Positions 13,939 to 28,281 of a DNA stretch of 36,359 bases are shown one piece after another. A model generated the notes under the pieces. The model was not told the origin of the DNA and did not search any database. It worked only from the letters and a program-made list of their open reading frames with translations. The stretch lies in contig CACYTU010000034.1 in assembly GCA_902777355.1 (NCBI GenBank), forward strand, positions 1 through 36,359, read 5' to 3'. How positions within the stretch are numbered: position 1 is the first letter of the stretch; the number at the start of each line of letters is the position of its first letter. Position numbers and translations under genes: made by a program. The DNA comes from an uncultured Lachnospiraceae bacterium. Its GTDB lineage: Bacteria > Bacillota > Clostridia > Lachnospirales > Lachnospiraceae.

Positions 13939-15672
13939 TCAGTTCATGTTCAGGTAGTAGAATTCAAGGTTTTGAAATGGCAGGTCAATCGCCTGTATAT
14001 GATAAAAAGCATTGTTTTTCTGTTTTGTATAATGGTAGTCCCTGAGGGCCGCCGTGGTGAAAAAGATATTGTTTTCCCGGTCAGGGGACAGGTACTTTCC
14101 ATACCGCCTGAGAAAATGCGTGAGGTCGATCTTCAGCCAGCCATCCCTGTCTGACTGGTCTGTCTCCGCGGCCTGTTTATAGATCATTTCATTGGCTATG
14201 TGCCTCTGTTTAGTCCTGCCCTCATCCCCGTAGACAATGGTATCTCCTGTCAGCAGCTGTATATAGAGGGCATTGTTCTCCGGATAGCTGCTCTGAGCTT
14301 CGAAAATCCCCTGCCTGGCATAGAGCACCACTCTGCTGTCCGGAGTGATAAAGGTCAGGGGCCGGTTCTGTTTGATGATCTGGGACTCCAGACGAAAATC
14401 GTTCCCGTCAATGTTGAGGACGAACAGGTCGGGATCATAGATGTATCGAAGGCCGGGATCCTGGCGGATCAAGGTCCTCAGGTCCGGGATCTGCGGGGGA
14501 AGCTTTGCCAGGGCATAACTCTCAATCAGGCCGGGATGCATGGCACAGACGTAATCCAGGGCATCGGGCCTTGCATAATCGTGTCCTTCCAGGCCCCACA
14601 GCCGGTACAGTTCCTTCTGCAGCAGGCAGGTATAGCTGCGCGCCCGCTTCTGCTGCCTTTTCACGAAAGGACAGCCAGTCCTGCACAGATAGAGCCAGGG
14701 GCAGTCCCCGCATTCCTGGTCGAAACCACAGGAGGCGTGGACCCGGCGGATCTTCTCCGCTCCCGTCTCCATGATCCTGCTCATGCTGTCCCGGTAGATA
14801 TTTCCATAATAGAAATCCGGGTTTTTCTGGCCCCGAACGCAGGAATAAATATCTCCGTTCTTCTCCAGCAGGTAGAACTTTTCCCCGCAGTTGACACAGT
14901 TGGTGCAGTAGTCCGGCCCAAACTCCCTGAACCAGGCTCCCTTCAATCCCGGCTCGAGTTCCGTTCCCGTAAAGGCGTCCCGGATCCCGCGGAAAAACTG
15001 CAGCTGCTGCTCTTCCGTCAGGGCGTGCAGAAGCCCGCTGCTGTTTTCAAAGCCGATCATAAAGTTGAAGTCCAGCATATCCAGACAGGTGTTCTTATGC
15101 AGATACCAGATATCCTCGATTACCTGGCCGATCCTTTCCAGATGTTCCCTGAAAATAGTCGCGGACACCTTCCTGTGATTGGGAAGGTCCTGCAGAAGCG
15201 ATACATTGGAGAGGATCTTTTCCAGGGTATCCCCGCCGTCTTTGCCCACCCGGAACCGGCGGTGAAGGGACAGAGGCAGGTCTATGCTGCCGCTCACCGA
15301 TACATTATATGCGCGGATGGCATCCATATGGCTGTCGAGATTGAGCAGATTTGTCTTGATATGGGGCTGGCCGACCCTGAAGCCGGCGCCTGTCAGAAGG
15401 CCTCTGTTCTTTTCATAGTACTGCGAGATATATTCCGCCAGTTCCCGGAATTCATCCTTTTTCAGGCAGGTGACCTCGCCGCCGTGCAGGGAGATATTGA
15501 AGGGAATGATATTCTCCGAATGGCATTTGTCCACAGCATAGGCCAGGGTCTCCAGCGGACTGCGGTCAGTATGCAGATCCTTTGTCTGGTCCTCCAGATA
15601 GCAGTACCTGCAGGCCATATTGCAGGCCATGGTCGGCACATAGAGCAAGTGTATATAAGTATTGGTATTCAT
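13939..15672 (-). CDS. Radical SAM/SPASM peptide maturase
   Basis: The 577-residue enzyme has the radical SAM cluster CNMACRYC (C17, C21, C24) and the SAM-binding HGGE (63-66). A SPASM-type auxiliary cluster region is rich in spaced cysteines (C256, C259, C262, C278, C315, C321, C324, C330, C334, C349). The order CGDCPWLYLCRTGCP is typical of SPASM maturases of ribosomal peptides and of anaerobic sulfatases. A further C-terminal domain of about 200 residues (about 375-577) is not assigned and could bind the substrate. Its operon neighbours point to the 122-residue polyasparagine protein as substrate. The enzyme would use 5'-deoxyadenosyl radical chemistry to modify side chains or backbone; the reaction is unknown. 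The start is preceded by GGGAGAGCC. Confidence 0.88.
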   Translation of the reverse strand: MNTNTYIHLLYVPTMACNMACRYCYLEDQTKDLHTDRSPLETLAYAVDKCHSENIIPFNISLHGGEVTCLKKDEFRELAEYISQYYEKNRGLLTGAGFRVGQPHIKTNLLNLDSHMDAIRAYNVSVSGSIDLPLSLHRRFRVGKDGGDTLEKILSNVSLLQDLPNHRKVSATIFREHLERIGQVIEDIWYLHKNTCLDMLDFNFMIGFENSSGLLHALTEEQQLQFFRGIRDAFTGTELEPGLKGAWFREFGPDYCTNCVNCGEKFYLLEKNGDIYSCVRGQKNPDFYYGNIYRDSMSRIMETGAEKIRRVHASCGFDQECGDCPWLYLCRTGCPFVKRQQKRARSYTCLLQKELYRLWGLEGHDYARPDALDYVCAMHPGLIESYALAKLPPQIPDLRTLIRQDPGLRYIYDPDLFVLNIDGNDFRLESQIIKQNRPLTFITPDSRVVLYARQGIFEAQSSYPENNALYIQLLTGDTIVYGDEGRTKQRHIANEMIYKQAAETDQSDRDGWLKIDLTHFLRRYGKYLSPDRENNIFFTTAALRDYHYTKQKNNAFYHIQAIDLPFQNLEFYYLNMN

Positions 15673-23268: not shown

Positions 23269-24267
23269 ATGAACAATCAGCGCAGCACTATTTCAAAAGA
23301 TGATTTTTTATTCTCTCAGATGGTAATCGGCAAACTGTCAACTTATTTTTCCAAGCGTGTCGTAGGTCAGGAAACCCTGAAGTACTCGCTGATCGCCTCG
23401 ATCATTGCGGACGGTCACGTCCTGATTGAGTCCGTACCCGGACTTGCGAAAACAACTGCGGCCAAAGCCATATCGGACGCGGTCAACGGACAGTTTTCCC
23501 GTATTCAGTGCACTCCCGACCTGCTGCCCAGCGATATCATCGGCACTCAGATCTATCATCAGCACACCGGAAAGTTCGAAACTATTTTCGGACCGGTTTT
23601 TGCCAACTTCGTCCTCCTGGATGAGGTCAACCGCTCGAGTGCAAAGACACAGAGTGCCATGCTGGAGGCCATGCAGGAGAGGCAGGTGACGATCGGCGGC
23701 ACGACATATCATATGCCCCAGGATATTTTCATTGTCATCGCTACGCAGAACCCGATCGAACAGGAAGGAACCTATCCCCTCTCCGAGGCACAGACGGACC
23801 GCTTTATGATTAAGGAAAAAATCACTTATCCGACTGTGGATGAGGAGATCGAGATCCTCAACCGGATCGAGACCGGCGCTATCGACAATAAGGAGCCCGC
23901 CGTGATCACGATCGAAGATATAGATAAGGTCCAGGACATCTCCGAGCATGTCTATGTGGATGTCACGATCAAAAAATATATCGCGGAGATCGTAAACGCG
24001 ACCAGAATGCCCGGAAAATATCTGGATCAGAAGATGGCATCTTATATCAGGATCGGCGCCAGCCCCAGAGCAACAATCAATTTCCTCAGAATCGCAAAGG
24101 CTTCCGCCCTCATGCACGGAAGGACTTACGTCTCGCCCGATGATATCAAACAGCTGCGCTATCAGGTCCTGCGCCACAGGATCGGCCTCAACTACGCGGC
24201 TGTCGCGGACAATGTCTCCGTGGAATCGATCATCGACAAAATCGTCAGTGTCGTGCCCGCCCCCTGA
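23269..24267 (+). CDS. MoxR-family AAA+ ATPase
   Basis: The 332-residue ATPase has a MoxR-type Walker A VPGLAKTT (K61), Walker B VLLDEVNRS (D118, E119) and sensor 1 ATQNP. The region QEGTYPLSEAQTDRFM and the C-terminal lid ASPRATINFLRIAKA are typical of the APE2220/MoxR branch. MoxR proteins work with VWA proteins as chaperones to activate or insert metal into complexes. Here it heads an operon with a DUF58 protein, a tandem-VWA protein and a TPR protein, as in aerotolerance (Bat) operons. SD-like AGAAAGGA lies upstream, somewhat far from the ATG. Confidence 0.9.
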   Translation: MNNQRSTISKDDFLFSQMVIGKLSTYFSKRVVGQETLKYSLIASIIADGHVLIESVPGLAKTTAAKAISDAVNGQFSRIQCTPDLLPSDIIGTQIYHQHTGKFETIFGPVFANFVLLDEVNRSSAKTQSAMLEAMQERQVTIGGTTYHMPQDIFIVIATQNPIEQEGTYPLSEAQTDRFMIKEKITYPTVDEEIEILNRIETGAIDNKEPAVITIEDIDKVQDISEHVYVDVTIKKYIAEIVNATRMPGKYLDQKMASYIRIGASPRATINFLRIAKASALMHGRTYVSPDDIKQLRYQVLRHRIGLNYAAVADNVSVESIIDKIVSVVPAP

Positions 24268-24377
24268 TCGGCATTTTGGGTATTTTTGCCGCTGTGCGGC
24301 TTTCTCAGAGAAAATATATAAAAGCTGCTTTGTCAGGGATAATATATAAATTCTTCTCCTTATTATAATAAAGAAAA

Positions 24378-25262
24378 ATGAGTATAAACATAAATTACGA
24401 TTATCTGGACAGAGTGAGGAAAATGGCCACACTCTGCACAAAGAGAAAGACGTCGGCTCTGCTGGACGGTGACTATCACTCCCTGCAGCACGGCCGCAGT
24501 CTGGATTTTGATGATCTGCGTGAATATCACATGGGGGATGATGTCAATATGATCGACTGGAAATCATCCTCCAGGGTCGGAAAGACCCTGATCCGCCGCT
24601 ATTTCGCAGACCGCAAGCACAATGTTCTCTTCGTCGGGGACACCGGCCTCAAGATGACCGGTGATACACCTGCGGGAGAGTCCAAGGAGCAGATCGCTCT
24701 CATGGCATTCGGCATCTCCGCTTATCTGGTCGATAAGCAGGGGGTTTCCTATGCCCTCTCCTGCTGCGGACCCAACGGGCACAAGATGACCCCTTTTCTG
24801 TCAGGCGCAGGCCACCTGGAGGAGATGATCTACAGCTATAAGGATGCTATTGAGAGCGGCCAGCCGACCCAGTCTTTCGCCGACACACTGTGGAAGACTG
24901 CCTCAACCTTTACCAGGCACATGGTCATGATCATCATCACAGACGCCGAGGGCCTGGCCCAGATGACTCCCGGTCTGATCAGGCGGCTCACCTATTACAA
25001 TGATGTCTATATATTTAAGATCGAAGACGCCATGCTGACATCAGAGAACACTTTTGATCTGGAAGACAGCCGCTATACGGATCCTTTTCTTTCCATCTGT
25101 GGAGATCTGCGTCAGCAGGAAACCCAGATCAGGGAACATATGGAGCAGGCCGCGATCCGGGATCTGACGCCTAACCGTATTTTTTTCAACAATATTTCCA
25201 GAGAAGAAGAAATCGTCGATGCGCTCATCTGGCTGTTTGCCCGCAGAAAGGGGACTATATGA
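24378..25262 (+). CDS. DUF58 domain protein (VWA-like), MoxR partner
   Basis: The 294-residue protein has the DUF58 core GDDVNMIDWKSSSRVGKTLIRRYFADR (in the family RxYxxGDxxRxIDWxxSAR form), followed by VLFVGDTGLKM where family members often have a MIDAS-like DxSxSM. The metal site is therefore degenerate (D-T-G-L-K). DUF58 proteins are found next to MoxR and bind it. The last residues ALIWLFARRKGTI lie within the first unit of a 71-bp triplication. The stop (TGA) overlaps an ATG (ATGA) that starts a chain of mini-ORFs. The 110-bp spacer before the gene contains a small GCCGC/GCGGC hairpin, and the start has only a weak SD. Confidence 0.88.
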   Translation: MSININYDYLDRVRKMATLCTKRKTSALLDGDYHSLQHGRSLDFDDLREYHMGDDVNMIDWKSSSRVGKTLIRRYFADRKHNVLFVGDTGLKMTGDTPAGESKEQIALMAFGISAYLVDKQGVSYALSCCGPNGHKMTPFLSGAGHLEEMIYSYKDAIESGQPTQSFADTLWKTASTFTRHMVMIIITDAEGLAQMTPGLIRRLTYYNDVYIFKIEDAMLTSENTFDLEDSRYTDPFLSICGDLRQQETQIREHMEQAAIRDLTPNRIFFNNISREEEIVDALIWLFARRKGTI

Positions 25263-25333
25263 AGCCATGTATTCATGCCGTATTTTCCCCGGCGCTCAAG
25301 CGGTTGTTTATCCGCAGAAAGGGGACTACATGA
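25259..25333 (+). CDS. Relay mini-ORF 1 (24 residues)
   Basis: ATG at 25259 overlaps the DUF58 stop as ATGA and is preceded by AAAGGGGAC. The product begins MKPCIHAVFSP and ends ALKRLFIRRKGTT, a copy of the DUF58 C-terminus. It stops at 25331-25333, again as ATGA. Probably a coupling device rather than a functional peptide. Confidence 0.4.
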   Translation: MKPCIHAVFSPALKRLFIRRKGTT

Positions 25334-25404
25334 ATCCCGGTATTCATCCCGCATTTTCCCCGGCGCTCAAGCGGTTGTTTATCCGCAGAAAGGGGACTAC
25401 ATGA
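25330..25404 (+). CDS. Relay mini-ORF 2 (24 residues)
   Basis: It starts inside the previous ORF's stop codon (ATGA) with AAAGGGGAC as SD. The product starts MNPGIHPAFSP and ends ALKRLFIRRKGTT. It is the middle repeat of the chain, and its end again forms ATGA. Confidence 0.4.
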   Translation: MNPGIHPAFSPALKRLFIRRKGTT

Positions 25405-25490
25405 ATCCCGGTATTCATCCCGCATTTTCCCCGGCGCTCTTCTCACGCAGTCACGCGGCGGGAAGAGCAGCGAAAAAGGAGGACTTATGA
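25401..25490 (+). CDS. Relay mini-ORF 3 (29 residues)
   Basis: It starts with the same MNPGIHPAFSPAL, then departs from the repeat (FSRSHAAGRAAKKEDL). Its stop overlaps the ATG of the next gene at 25487 as ATGA. AAAAAGGAGG near its 3' end is the SD of that next gene. Confidence 0.4.
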   Translation: MNPGIHPAFSPALFSRSHAAGRAAKKEDL

Positions 25491-25951
25491 AATTCAGTAT
25501 AGGACTTGAAGACCCCTTCGCCTTTTCGTCTTACTGGTATGCAGTCGGTCTGGGATTGATCCTGCTCGCTTTCGGTCTCTTCATGCTCTGCCCCCCGATT
25601 CTGGACCGGATCGAGAAAAGGTCCCGTTCTTCCTTTAGAAAGAGCTTTTATTCCCGGACCAAGGACAAGTACCTGAAGAAGATCGGGAAGGTCGAAGCAG
25701 CCTTTGACAAAGGCCAGCTCAATATGAGGGGCGTGCACCAGCAGATGAGTTCAATCGTCCGGAGCTTCGTCCAGACAGTGACAGGATGGCCGACTGAAGC
25801 CATGGTTTATCTGGAACTTGTCAACCTTGACCGACCGGAACTGGCAGAACTCGTGAGGCAGTATTATGAGCCGGAATTCGCCTATTACTCGGAAGCAGAC
25901 GCAAAATCCGCGATAGAAAAAGGTAAGGAGCTGATCACAAAATGGTCCTGA
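25487..25951 (+). CDS. Single-span membrane protein of the Bat-like operon, unknown family
   Basis: The 154-residue protein has one membrane segment (about 15-36, WYAVGLGLILLAFGLFML) near the N-terminus and a basic, helical cytosolic remainder (about 37-154). I do not recognise a family. Its place between the DUF58 and VWA genes, at the end of the mini-ORF chain and with a 10-base overlap with the VWA gene (25942-25951), suggests a stoichiometric partner of the VWA protein. SD: AAGGAGGA, 5 bases before the ATG. Confidence 0.75.
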   Translation: MKFSIGLEDPFAFSSYWYAVGLGLILLAFGLFMLCPPILDRIEKRSRSSFRKSFYSRTKDKYLKKIGKVEAAFDKGQLNMRGVHQQMSSIVRSFVQTVTGWPTEAMVYLELVNLDRPELAELVRQYYEPEFAYYSEADAKSAIEKGKELITKWS

Positions 25952-28077
25952 GTTATCATTATCCCCTCAGAATCCTTCTGGGGATAATCATTGCAGCCGC
26001 GGTCGCAGCGGTCGCGTATTATTTAAAGAAAAGGAATAAAAAGGGAAAGCCTCTGCGGGTCGCCAACTCCGCACGCCTGAAATCACACCCTCTTTATAAA
26101 AAGGCCCTGATGCAGTCACGGGTCTTCCGGATCCTGTCTACAGCCGGCATTATTCTCTCGCTCACTGCCGCCCTGTTTCTCTCCGCGAGGCCCTATCGAA
26201 GATCCGCCTTTAAAGAGAACGTCAACCGGCGGGATATCTTTTTGTGTATCGATCTGTCTCCTTCTAATTACAGAGGAGTAAAGGATCTGGTGAATGAATT
26301 CTCCCATGTGGTTGAGGGGCTGGACGGAGACCGGATCGGGATCTCGGTCTTTAATACTTCCAGTGTCCGTTATGTCCCCATGACAGACGACTACGATTTC
26401 GCCCTTGAGAGGCTGGAAGCCCTTGCCGGCTATCTGGCCGCCGAGGAGGAATTCACCACAAAATATGTCGACCGCTATGATTCTGTCTATGACATCCCGG
26501 CATCCGAGAGGGACCGCTACACAGAGCTGAACAACATTCTCTCCACTTTTGACAAGGGAACCACGGCAGGCTATGAGGTCAAGGGAACTTCCGCAGTAGG
26601 CGAAAGCCTGGCCTCCTGTCTTTTCAGCTTCCCTGAACTGTCAAAAGAAGAAAGGACCAGAGCCATTATCCTGGTGACAGACAATCACGAGGAGCTGTTC
26701 GACGATCCTCTTGTCACCCTGGAGGAATCGGCGCAGATGTGCGCGCAGAACAAAGTCACCGTCTTTGGGATCTATCCCGGAGACAGTCAGGCGTCAGCAG
26801 GTTCCGCCGCAGACGGACAGTCCGGCAGCGGTGTGGATGGCGAAGCGCCCTCTTCCCCGGGTCAGACCGGCGGTTCAGGGCAAGGCAGCAATGACGGCAG
26901 TCCCGGCTCCGCTTCCTACTCTGCTTCCGACTCCGCTTCCGACAGGAACAGGATGAAAGAATCTGTGGAACTGACCGGCGGAAAATTTTATGATGCCGGC
27001 TCATCTCTCACGGCAAAAGAGATCCTGGAGGATATCCGGTCTCAGGAAATCATCAATACAGACACAGCTACCGCGTCGGTCGACACGGATATGCCCTTTT
27101 TCTGGTTCTGTGTCCTGATCATCGGGTTCGTCCTCATCGTGGCCACAACCCTTTATTTTGTCCTGCGCAGGGGCATCCGCAGGGGATTATTGTCACGGAA
27201 ACTGACAGCAGCCATCCTGCTTGTCCTGATGACGGCAGGCATCGTGGTTATCGGCATACGGCCTATGTATCTGAGTCCCTCCGCGGAGCTGATGACGGAC
27301 AATCTGGACGTGGCTTTCGTCGTCGACACCACCATCAGTATGTGGGCGGAGGACCACGGCGGAGAGACCCGCATAGACGGCGTGAAAAGGGATATTTACA
27401 GGATCATGAATTCCCTGCCCGGATCCAGCTTTTCTGTCATCCGCTTTGCTGACGGAGCCGAGATCCTGACTCCTTTCACACAGGATATCGATTCCATTTA
27501 CGATATCCTCAATAATCTCAATATGCCCGGCTATTCGACGGCACAGGGTTCATCGCTCAATACAGCCTACGACGCCCTGCAGACAATGCTGACCAATGCC
27601 GGTACCAGAGGCCGGGACCGCAGGACGATCGTGTTCGTTTTCAGTGACGGCGAGACTACCGACGGATCCGAACTGATGAGCTTTTCGTCTCTGGGCGGTA
27701 TGATCCACGAGGGAGCCGTCCTGGGATACGGAACCGAAAAAGGCGGAAAAATGTATTATCCCGGCAGAGGATATGTAAAGAATGTCTCCACGGGAGAAGC
27801 CGCCAGATCCGTCATCGATGAGGACGCCCTGCGTCAGATCGCGTCAGACCTTGGGATCCAGTATATCAACGAGACTGAGTCCCTGAATTCTTCCGGACAG
27901 CTCAACTTTGCCCTCAGCTCAAAGCTGCAGTCCATCCGAATGCTGAGCACAAGGGCTTCTTTCCAGGCGGGGAACAGAACCGGCTACAACGAGACCTACC
28001 ACTACTTCTCTGCCGCCACGGCTCTTCTCCTGATCATTTGGATCAGCCTGACTGTCTACCGGGGAAATGTCGCCTGA
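25942..28077 (+). CDS. Tandem von Willebrand factor A membrane protein (BatA-BatB fusion-like)
   Basis: The 711-residue protein has two VWA domains. The first (about 97-370) has an intact MIDAS start DLSPS (D104, S106, S108). The second (about 458-680) has DTTIS (D462, T464, S466). Membrane segments are at about 11-28, 64-82, 386-408, 421-440 and 693-707. The first domain contains a Ser/Gly/Asp-rich insertion (about 282-330) that looks disordered. In Bacteroides-type aerotolerance operons BatA and BatB are separate VWA proteins with membrane helices; here the pair is fused. It should assemble with MoxR, DUF58 and TPR partners at the membrane. The gene overlaps its predecessor by 10 bases. Confidence 0.88.
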   Translation: MVLSYHYPLRILLGIIIAAAVAAVAYYLKKRNKKGKPLRVANSARLKSHPLYKKALMQSRVFRILSTAGIILSLTAALFLSARPYRRSAFKENVNRRDIFLCIDLSPSNYRGVKDLVNEFSHVVEGLDGDRIGISVFNTSSVRYVPMTDDYDFALERLEALAGYLAAEEEFTTKYVDRYDSVYDIPASERDRYTELNNILSTFDKGTTAGYEVKGTSAVGESLASCLFSFPELSKEERTRAIILVTDNHEELFDDPLVTLEESAQMCAQNKVTVFGIYPGDSQASAGSAADGQSGSGVDGEAPSSPGQTGGSGQGSNDGSPGSASYSASDSASDRNRMKESVELTGGKFYDAGSSLTAKEILEDIRSQEIINTDTATASVDTDMPFFWFCVLIIGFVLIVATTLYFVLRRGIRRGLLSRKLTAAILLVLMTAGIVVIGIRPMYLSPSAELMTDNLDVAFVVDTTISMWAEDHGGETRIDGVKRDIYRIMNSLPGSSFSVIRFADGAEILTPFTQDIDSIYDILNNLNMPGYSTAQGSSLNTAYDALQTMLTNAGTRGRDRRTIVFVFSDGETTDGSELMSFSSLGGMIHEGAVLGYGTEKGGKMYYPGRGYVKNVSTGEAARSVIDEDALRQIASDLGIQYINETESLNSSGQLNFALSSKLQSIRMLSTRASFQAGNRTGYNETYHYFSAATALLLIIWISLTVYRGNVA

Positions 28078-28106
28078 TCACGATACAGTTACAGGTCGAC
28101 AATATT

Positions 28107-28281
28107 GTTGATCGGCTTATCTGTTGATTGACTTAGCTGTTAGTTGACTTAGCTGTCGATCGGCTTAGTTGTTAATTGACTTAGCTGTTGATTGGCCTGG
28201 TTGTTGATTTACTTAGCTGTTGATTGGCCTGGTTGTTGATTTACTTAGCTGTTAATTGCTTTACTGTTGATCGGCTTAGTT
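28107..28281. repeat. 16-bp tandem repeat, 11 copies, between VWA and TPR genes
   Basis: Eleven head-to-tail units of about 16 bp (one is 15) follow the consensus GTTGATTGACTTAGCT. Variation is mild and partly paired (units alternate GGCCTGGTT and TACTTAGCT). They fill the first half of a 336-bp intergenic gap. The remaining 28282-28413 contains no gene. GGAGG at 28399-28403 is the SD of the TPR gene. Confidence 0.9.

Follow-up and report, generated by a model that had tools for sequence, protein, structure and literature searches.

What does a chain of three very short reading frames do between two genes of one operon, and how did it come to be there? The window (the whole stretch of 36,359 nucleotides that was analysed) raises this question at the 3′ end of a DUF58 gene, where the DUF58 stop codon, three mini-ORFs and the next gene are joined by four ATGA junctions, with a 4-nt overlap at each, as read from the ORF list and the sequence. 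The neighbouring genes, a putative operon, encode in turn a MoxR ATPase, DUF58, a 154-aa protein, a VWA protein and, some 340 nt further on, a TPR protein; the 154-aa protein gave no Pfam match. We consider, with a probability of roughly 0.72, that the chain lies in an array made by local replication slippage in a repeat-rich genome, that the array is near-neutral, and that it would act as a bridge for ribosomes if it is translated. The features on which the argument draws are the following.

23269..24267, + strand: MoxR-type AAA ATPase gene, upstream of DUF58 (Pfam AAA_3, 5.9e-59; AAA_lid_2, 2.7e-20)
24378..25262, + strand: DUF58 gene, an ORF (Pfam DUF58, 2e-15); its stop at 25260-25262 (TGA) overlaps the ATG of mini-ORF1
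25221..25262, + strand: DUF58 3′ end (GCGCTC ... ATGA), template for 42 of the 71 bp of the unit; 35/42 identical to the inner tail copies
25221..25439, + strand: tandem array of period 71; the unit limits are GCGCTC direct repeats at 25221, 25292, 25363 and 25434
25247..25253, + strand: SD AAAGGGG of mini-ORF1, with the same at 25318-25324 and 25389-25395; -8.1 kcal/mol each
25259..25333, + strand: mini-ORF1, 24 aa, MKPCIHAVFSPALKRLFIRRKGTT
25330..25404, + strand: mini-ORF2, 24 aa, MNPGIHPAFSPALKRLFIRRKGTT
25401..25490, + strand: mini-ORF3, 29 aa, MNPGIHPAFSPALFSRSHAAGRAAKKEDL; its end falls beyond the array
25476..25482, + strand: SD AAGGAGG of the downstream gene; -11.8 kcal/mol, stronger than the mini-ORF SDs
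25487..25951, + strand: downstream gene, 154 aa, hydrophobic by eye over a stretch close to the N-terminus; relatives also have it downstream of DUF58
25942..28077, + strand: VWA-domain protein gene, overlapping the 154-aa gene by 10 nt

Copies, start signals and frame arithmetic

The sequence-only reading had described a chain of 24-, 24- and 29-residue ORFs joined by ATGA and each provided with its own SD, and this chain was confirmed to the base. It had also called the array a triplication of 71 bp. Tandem Repeats Finder indeed gives a period of 71, with 2.9 copies, 94% matches and a score of 356, but the description has to be refined in that the first "copy" is the genuine DUF58 C-terminus and the inner copies are not all alike. 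The likeness begins at the GCGCTC of 25221, upstream of the program's own start at 25234. Copies 1 and 2 differ at 5 of 71 positions, all of them within the 29-nt head (head1 vs head2, 5/29), tail1 and tail2 being identical; no difference separates head2 from head3, and an exact run of 87 nt at offset 71 is common to copies 2 and 3.

The duplex energies listed above were calculated with a presumed 9-nt anti-SD. The block formed by SD and ATGA, CCGCAGAAAGGGGACTAYATGAA, occurs at three places in the window with 0 mismatches when 3 were allowed; the mean over 100 shuffles is 0. In the predicted structure, the SD positions at the starts have mean pairing probabilities of 0.57 to 0.78. RNA structure as the purpose of the repeat was rejected, the fold having a z-score of -1.08 and 31 of 200 shuffles being equally or more stable. 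No promoter-like or terminator-like site was detected in 25221-25490, which speaks against an independent promoter or terminator in the array; the wider interval 24300-26000 has two of each, close to the shuffled means of 1.8 and 1.5, respectively.

The sequence-only reading is correct on the arithmetic of the unit length: 25 codons less the 4-base overlap make 71 bp, and each added unit means one more coupled ORF. On a one-unit junction, an enumeration of tandem duplications between 30 and 120 bp long, with starts from 25201 to 25247, gave 3046 cases, all of which contain the first ATGA and end before the SD of the next gene. Exactly one coupled ORF is added, and the next gene is reached, in 990 of the 3046 (32.5%); these are 990 of the 1011 duplications whose length is 2 mod 3, and none of any other length. 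The apparent "design" is therefore about a one-in-three outcome of junction duplication. With 12 random substitutions introduced, 48% of trials still gave an unbroken chain, and selection is therefore not required to explain its survival.

Of the changed codons, four in five alter the residue, both in mini-ORF1 compared with mini-ORF2 and in the DUF58 tail compared with mini-ORF1, and judging from these substitutions the mini-peptides look unconserved or unconstrained. Between the DUF58 tail and tail1, changes fall on 1 of 22 SD/ATGA positions vs 6 of 20 upstream positions (p 0.04); the fewer changes in the SD/ATGA half could be a weak sign of some selection on the starts. Copies 1 and 2 show a contrast between tail (0/42 changes) and head (5/29; p 0.009), which would be accounted for, without selection, by a second duplication of tail1-head2.

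The junction in relatives and the origin of the unit

We searched 62 genomes of the genus, the genome of the window and 61 congeners, and found DUF58 in 25. These yielded 22 distinct junctions, leaving out the own genome, the weak second hits L022-L024, and L015 and L035, which have no readable next gene (L025 is the same record as L027, and L026 the same as L002). With the start of the next gene taken from the alignment, its spacing from DUF58 is -4 nt in 13 relatives, -17 in 4, -2 in 2, and +1, +44 and +102 in one relative each (n = 22). ATGA stands at the junction in all 13 relatives with -4 nt. A DUF58 with at least 64% identity is present in 14 relatives, and these include all 13. The lone exception among those 14 is the closest relative (81%, L027), in which the aligned ATG follows the DUF58 stop at a distance of 44 nt. 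At that stop the sequence is TTGA, with a TTG that shares the frame of the next gene and precedes its ATG by 16 codons; an SD-like stretch has -8.2 kcal/mol at the TTG and -7.2 at the ATG. This junction may be coupled via the TTG start, with a protein longer by 16 residues, or the gene may start at the ATG after 44 nt, and we rejected it as an "uncoupled" counter-example because the TTGA puts a TTG in frame. The insertion in this relative has no detectable likeness to the insert of the window.

At the junctions of the 22 relatives there is no comparable tandem copy, the longest exact self-match (offsets 20 to 149) being 10 nt against 87 here. With up to 2 mismatches, the SD/ATGA block occurs in the own genome only, at these three places, and in 0 of 61 congeners. 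The 232-nt mini-ORF stretch, when at most 12 candidates per genome were scored, matched itself and, in three other genomes, gave three matches 22 to 29 nt long. Insert and array are found in 1 of 62 genomes. Given this count and the 13 of 22 relatives with direct ATGA overlap, direct coupling is probably the ancestral state, and the relay is known from one genome.

Two further observations concern the same junctions. In a distant relative (L011, 43% DUF58) the DUF58 stop GTGA opens a short frame that has the same TAG end as the longer DUF58 of L034 (by eye); the end of DUF58 may be split there and form a bridge to the next gene. In 10 of the 22 relatives (L004-L009, L029-L032) the 154-aa protein matches twice in succession downstream of DUF58, which suggests a tandem paralogue.

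The genome to which the array belongs is rich in such repeats. In a sample of 836,359 bases (the window with L043-L062 and L072-L091) there are 424 arrays (50.7 per 100 kb), 120 of them with a period of 40 or more and 32 with a score of 300 or more. Eight congener stretches around the same operon hold 58 arrays in 159,906 bases, or 36.3 per 100 kb, so the richness is partly shared with congeners; seven of these arrays have a period of 40 or more and none a score of 300. One 50-kb stretch of E. coli K-12 has a single array. Within the first 436,359 bases, periods that are a multiple of 3 account for 80 of 103 arrays inside ORFs vs 43 of 133 elsewhere (p 3.5e-12), with the ORFs taken by a crude greedy rule that labels the window array by an antisense ORF. 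Pairs of an array (period 20 or more) and a stop number 43 in 836 kb, and 22 of them have a same-strand ORF within 400 bp downstream. None of these 22 forms an ATGA relay; the array of the window is outside this set, its pair having been missed by the greedy ORF set, probably as an antisense ORF displaced DUF58. In this genome it is thus common for arrays to run across the end of a gene, and the relay is the product of such an array at an ATGA junction. Among 612 ends of long ORFs with ATGA or GTGA in the 836 kb (stop-to-stop ORFs on both strands, many of which must be spurious), 27 are connected to an ORF of at least 80 aa by one or more mini-ORFs, and the relay of the window is the only one of these to run through three mini-ORFs. 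Dead-end chains of three or more mini-ORFs occur at 19 of the 612 ends, so chain length alone is weak evidence.

At the 22 array-stop loci with a same-strand ORF downstream, for example L075 (minus strand, 14383-14565) and L087 (minus strand, 2269-2452), the last codons and the stop are repeated several times downstream of the ORF. Between its VWA and TPR genes (28106-28279) the window also has about 11 tandem copies of a 16-bp unit, and at 1466-1620 about 10 copies of a 15-bp unit.

The limits of the array indicate how it may have been made. The spacing of GCGCTC is exactly 71, and the likeness ends left of 25221 and right of 25439. The unit is thus bounded by short direct repeats at which the likeness stops, as in slippage-made repeats, and since it ends left of the first and right of the last GCGCTC, this motif is likely the slippage site. 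Both DUF58 and the mini-ORFs read this motif in one frame, as the codons GCG CTC for Ala-Leu, and therefore each added copy adds one coupled ORF. The tail copies are identical to the DUF58 3′ end at 35 of 42 positions, and the 21-nt part of the tail without the SD/ATGA block is closer to the DUF58 of its own genome than are shuffles (p 0.003). Outside the SD block, the comparison of the tail with the DUF58 tails of relatives gave p above 0.05 in 13 of 14 cases and 0.04995 in one.

For the 29-nt head and the 3′ part of mini-ORF3, comparisons with the own genome, the congeners, the start of the next gene and the insertion of the closest relative did not yield a source. We considered whether the head had diverged from a duplicate of the next-gene start, as by eye both have GTATTCA, yet it is no better than shuffles: in local alignments with 15 next-gene starts the lowest p was 0.24 for head1 and 0.052 for head2, with summed p of 0.74 and 0.70. 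As the head has no significant likeness to the start of the next gene or to the insertion of the closest relative, a duplication straight across the original ATGA junction is unsupported. We also rejected the end of mini-ORF3 as an old DUF58 tail, the likeness being mostly the SD itself (lowest p against 15 DUF58 tails 0.003 for L004 and 0.037 for L002; own tail 0.14), and an insert common to the window and its closest relative (p 0.40, with 84 of the 85 letters of the window insert compared).

We hypothesize that a short insert of about 86 nt would have landed between DUF58 and the next gene, bearing one ORF coupled by ATGA on either side. The 3′ end of DUF58 and the insert would each have had a GCGCTC in the same frame, and slippage from one to the other would then have duplicated a 71-bp unit made up of the tail of DUF58, SD and ATGA included, and 29 nt of the insert; a second duplication, of tail1-head2, would have come later. 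Because the two GCGCTC shared one frame, each copy closes with the stop codon of DUF58 and the ATG that overlaps it, and the chain stays intact. The differences among the copies would fit these two rounds, an older duplication and then a recent one of tail1-head2. The array with its limits, its likeness to the DUF58 tail, the rule on frame and the direct ATGA of 13 among 22 relatives were observed; it is the slippage, the order of these events, the translation of the mini-ORFs and the near-neutrality that we infer.

Two other accounts of how the array came about can be weighed against slippage. The copy number rests on one draft assembly, the array being known from one genome of 150 contigs that is 84% complete with 5.1% contamination, and a number inflated or wrong in the assembly would agree with that quality and with the identity of copies 2 and 3 along 87 nt. 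Such an artefact is nevertheless very improbable: the DUF58 tail and tail1 differ at 7/42 positions and head1 and head2 at 5/29, so at least one duplication is no assembly copy error, and assemblers usually collapse, rather than multiply, such repeats. The array could also be a MIRU-like mobile element with ATGA junctions as its insertion sites, since its architecture is the same as that of MIRUs, as these are outlined in the available part of a 2025 review (PMC12548453). This possibility is largely refuted, and we hold it for extremely unlikely, as the 3.87-Mb genome has no second copy of the insert (other matches are of 15 to 25 nt), the 61 congeners gave three matches of 22 to 29 nt with at most 12 candidates per genome scored, and most of the unit resembles the 3′ end of DUF58 itself.

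Bridge, attenuator or debris

If the mini-ORFs are translated, ribosomes ending DUF58 would reinitiate at each of them in turn and arrive at the next gene, and such a bridge would retain the coupling that most close relatives achieve by direct overlap. ATGA pairs were reported to be coupled in E. coli and H. volcanii reporters, with 15 nt of the upstream gene being enough in E. coli and coupling almost lost at about 20 nt spacing (PMC10666635, accessible text). Since so short a spacing nearly abolishes coupling, the two genes should be uncoupled by an insert of this length unless it is bridged, and mini-ORFs with ATGA at both ends would restore the path. Counting against a bridge, a 2019 study described, in its accessible text, one of five E. 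coli overlap pairs as being without coupling and partial coupling across a 50-bp spacer (PMC6728339). From this literature on ATGA pairs, as far as the accessible portions of the two papers go (PMC10666635, PMC6728339), it would seem that keeping coupling across the insert is at least as likely as lowering output. The effect of the chain, if it has any, is likely coupling kept across inserted DNA, and this is the functional reading that we prefer.

The sequence-only reading proposed that copy number could act as an attenuator that lowers the output of the downstream membrane genes stepwise. In such an attenuator a share of the ribosomes would be lost at each mini-ORF, more units would give stepwise less of the 154-aa and VWA proteins, and slippage would switch the number. 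In its favour, every step of the unbroken chain has an SD, and the unit length preserves the chain for each copy. The 87-nt exact repeat would be prone to slippage, and the steps may be incomplete, as one E. coli pair of the 2019 study, in its accessible text, was about 60% coupled with nearly 40% of starts de novo (PMC6728339). As a functional reading, however, it is without support, given the presence of the array in 1 of 62 genomes, the relay in about one-third of duplications, the mostly residue-altering changes and the stronger downstream SD. The SD of the last gene is the strongest of the four, so independent starts there are likely and may mask any loss, and the array was not found in the other 61 genomes searched. 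We find the attenuator, and with it regulation by copy number, improbable. Its strictest form, a slippage-driven dial in which a fixed share is lost per mini-ORF, unit number sets the ratio of DUF58 to the downstream membrane and VWA proteins, and that ratio varies among the cells of one population, is quite improbable. It is also rather unlikely that the array is purely neutral debris, with mini-ORFs hardly translated or of little import and a downstream gene that starts from its own strong SD, even though the downstream SD (-11.8 vs -8.1 kcal/mol), the altered residue in four of five changed codons in both comparisons, the high background of tandem arrays and the one uncoupled pair among five in E. 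coli (PMC6728339, accessible text) all agree with it. Set against these are four ATGA/SD junctions of the type that works in coupled pairs, for which 15 nt upstream was reported to be enough (PMC10666635, accessible text), and the predicted structure at the starts (SD pairing 0.57 to 0.78), which would favour coupling over free starts. Moreover, most close relatives retain the 4-nt overlap, and even the insertion of the closest relative has an in-frame TTGA at the DUF58 stop; since that TTG is in frame with the next gene, we slightly reduced the odds of debris.

Comparison with known coupled-ORF systems

The closest likeness is to the MIRUs of mycobacteria, successive copies of which overlap as ATGA. 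These are short, apparently mobile repeats with an ORF coupled at -4 nt, a coupling that likely lets them insert with little effect (PMC12548453, accessible text). The closest precedent is the MIRU array of senX3-regX3 (MIRU-VNTR locus 580), with tandem units between two operon genes, as here; its 77-bp repeats are reported, in the accessible part of the source, at 2 and 3 copies in two BCG strains (PMC9392950). The repeat length is 2 mod 3, like 71, and by the same arithmetic each MIRU copy would add one coupled ORF. Like MIRUs, which are short units between operon genes and often in tandem, our array has a 71-bp unit in 2.9 copies between DUF58 and the next gene, and its four ATGA junctions give the -4 nt spacing of mini-ORF to flanking gene, a spacing known from sequence alone. 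MIRUs, however, are dispersed over many genomic loci and apparently mobile (PMC12548453, accessible text), whereas the 71-bp unit resembles its own upstream gene and sits at one place in its genome, with congener matches of 22 to 29 nt. It would thus appear MIRU-like in look, and since it lacks the dispersal we do not file it as a MIRU. Its proposed history would offer a simple origin for MIRU-like arrays outside mycobacteria.

With ATGA termination-reinitiation pairs, as described in the accessible parts of two studies, the array has in common the 4-nt overlap and the SD inside the upstream frame (PMC6728339, PMC10666635); the stop/start overlap, of 1 or 4 nt in such pairs, is 4 nt at every junction here. 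It differs from them in having three short frames in series between two real genes. Short uORFs and engineered leaders likewise consist of a short ORF with the sole role of delivering ribosomes to the next start, but those described in the available portion of the review are single short ORFs before a gene, whereas here a serial chain lies between two genes (PMC12548453). Slippage-made VNTRs, like our array, have a unit bounded by direct repeats and an older, diverged copy beside younger, identical ones; in contrast to an ordinary VNTR, the 71-bp array straddles an overlapping stop and start, so that its copies are ORFs. Among the titles and abstract beginnings searched, a body of text mostly outside the subscription literature, we found no paper on serial mini-ORF chains.

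A serial chain of coupled ORFs can therefore arise without design: when a tandem duplication covers an ATGA junction and its length is 2 mod 3, such a chain results in almost all cases (990 of 1011 here). The authors of the 2019 study stated, in its accessible text, that quantifying coupling efficiency will be important (PMC6728339), and the array is a natural construct in which to measure the translation lost per termination-reinitiation step. A role as a regulator is without support; the relay layout itself is real and neat, and is a variant of known coupled-ORF architecture.
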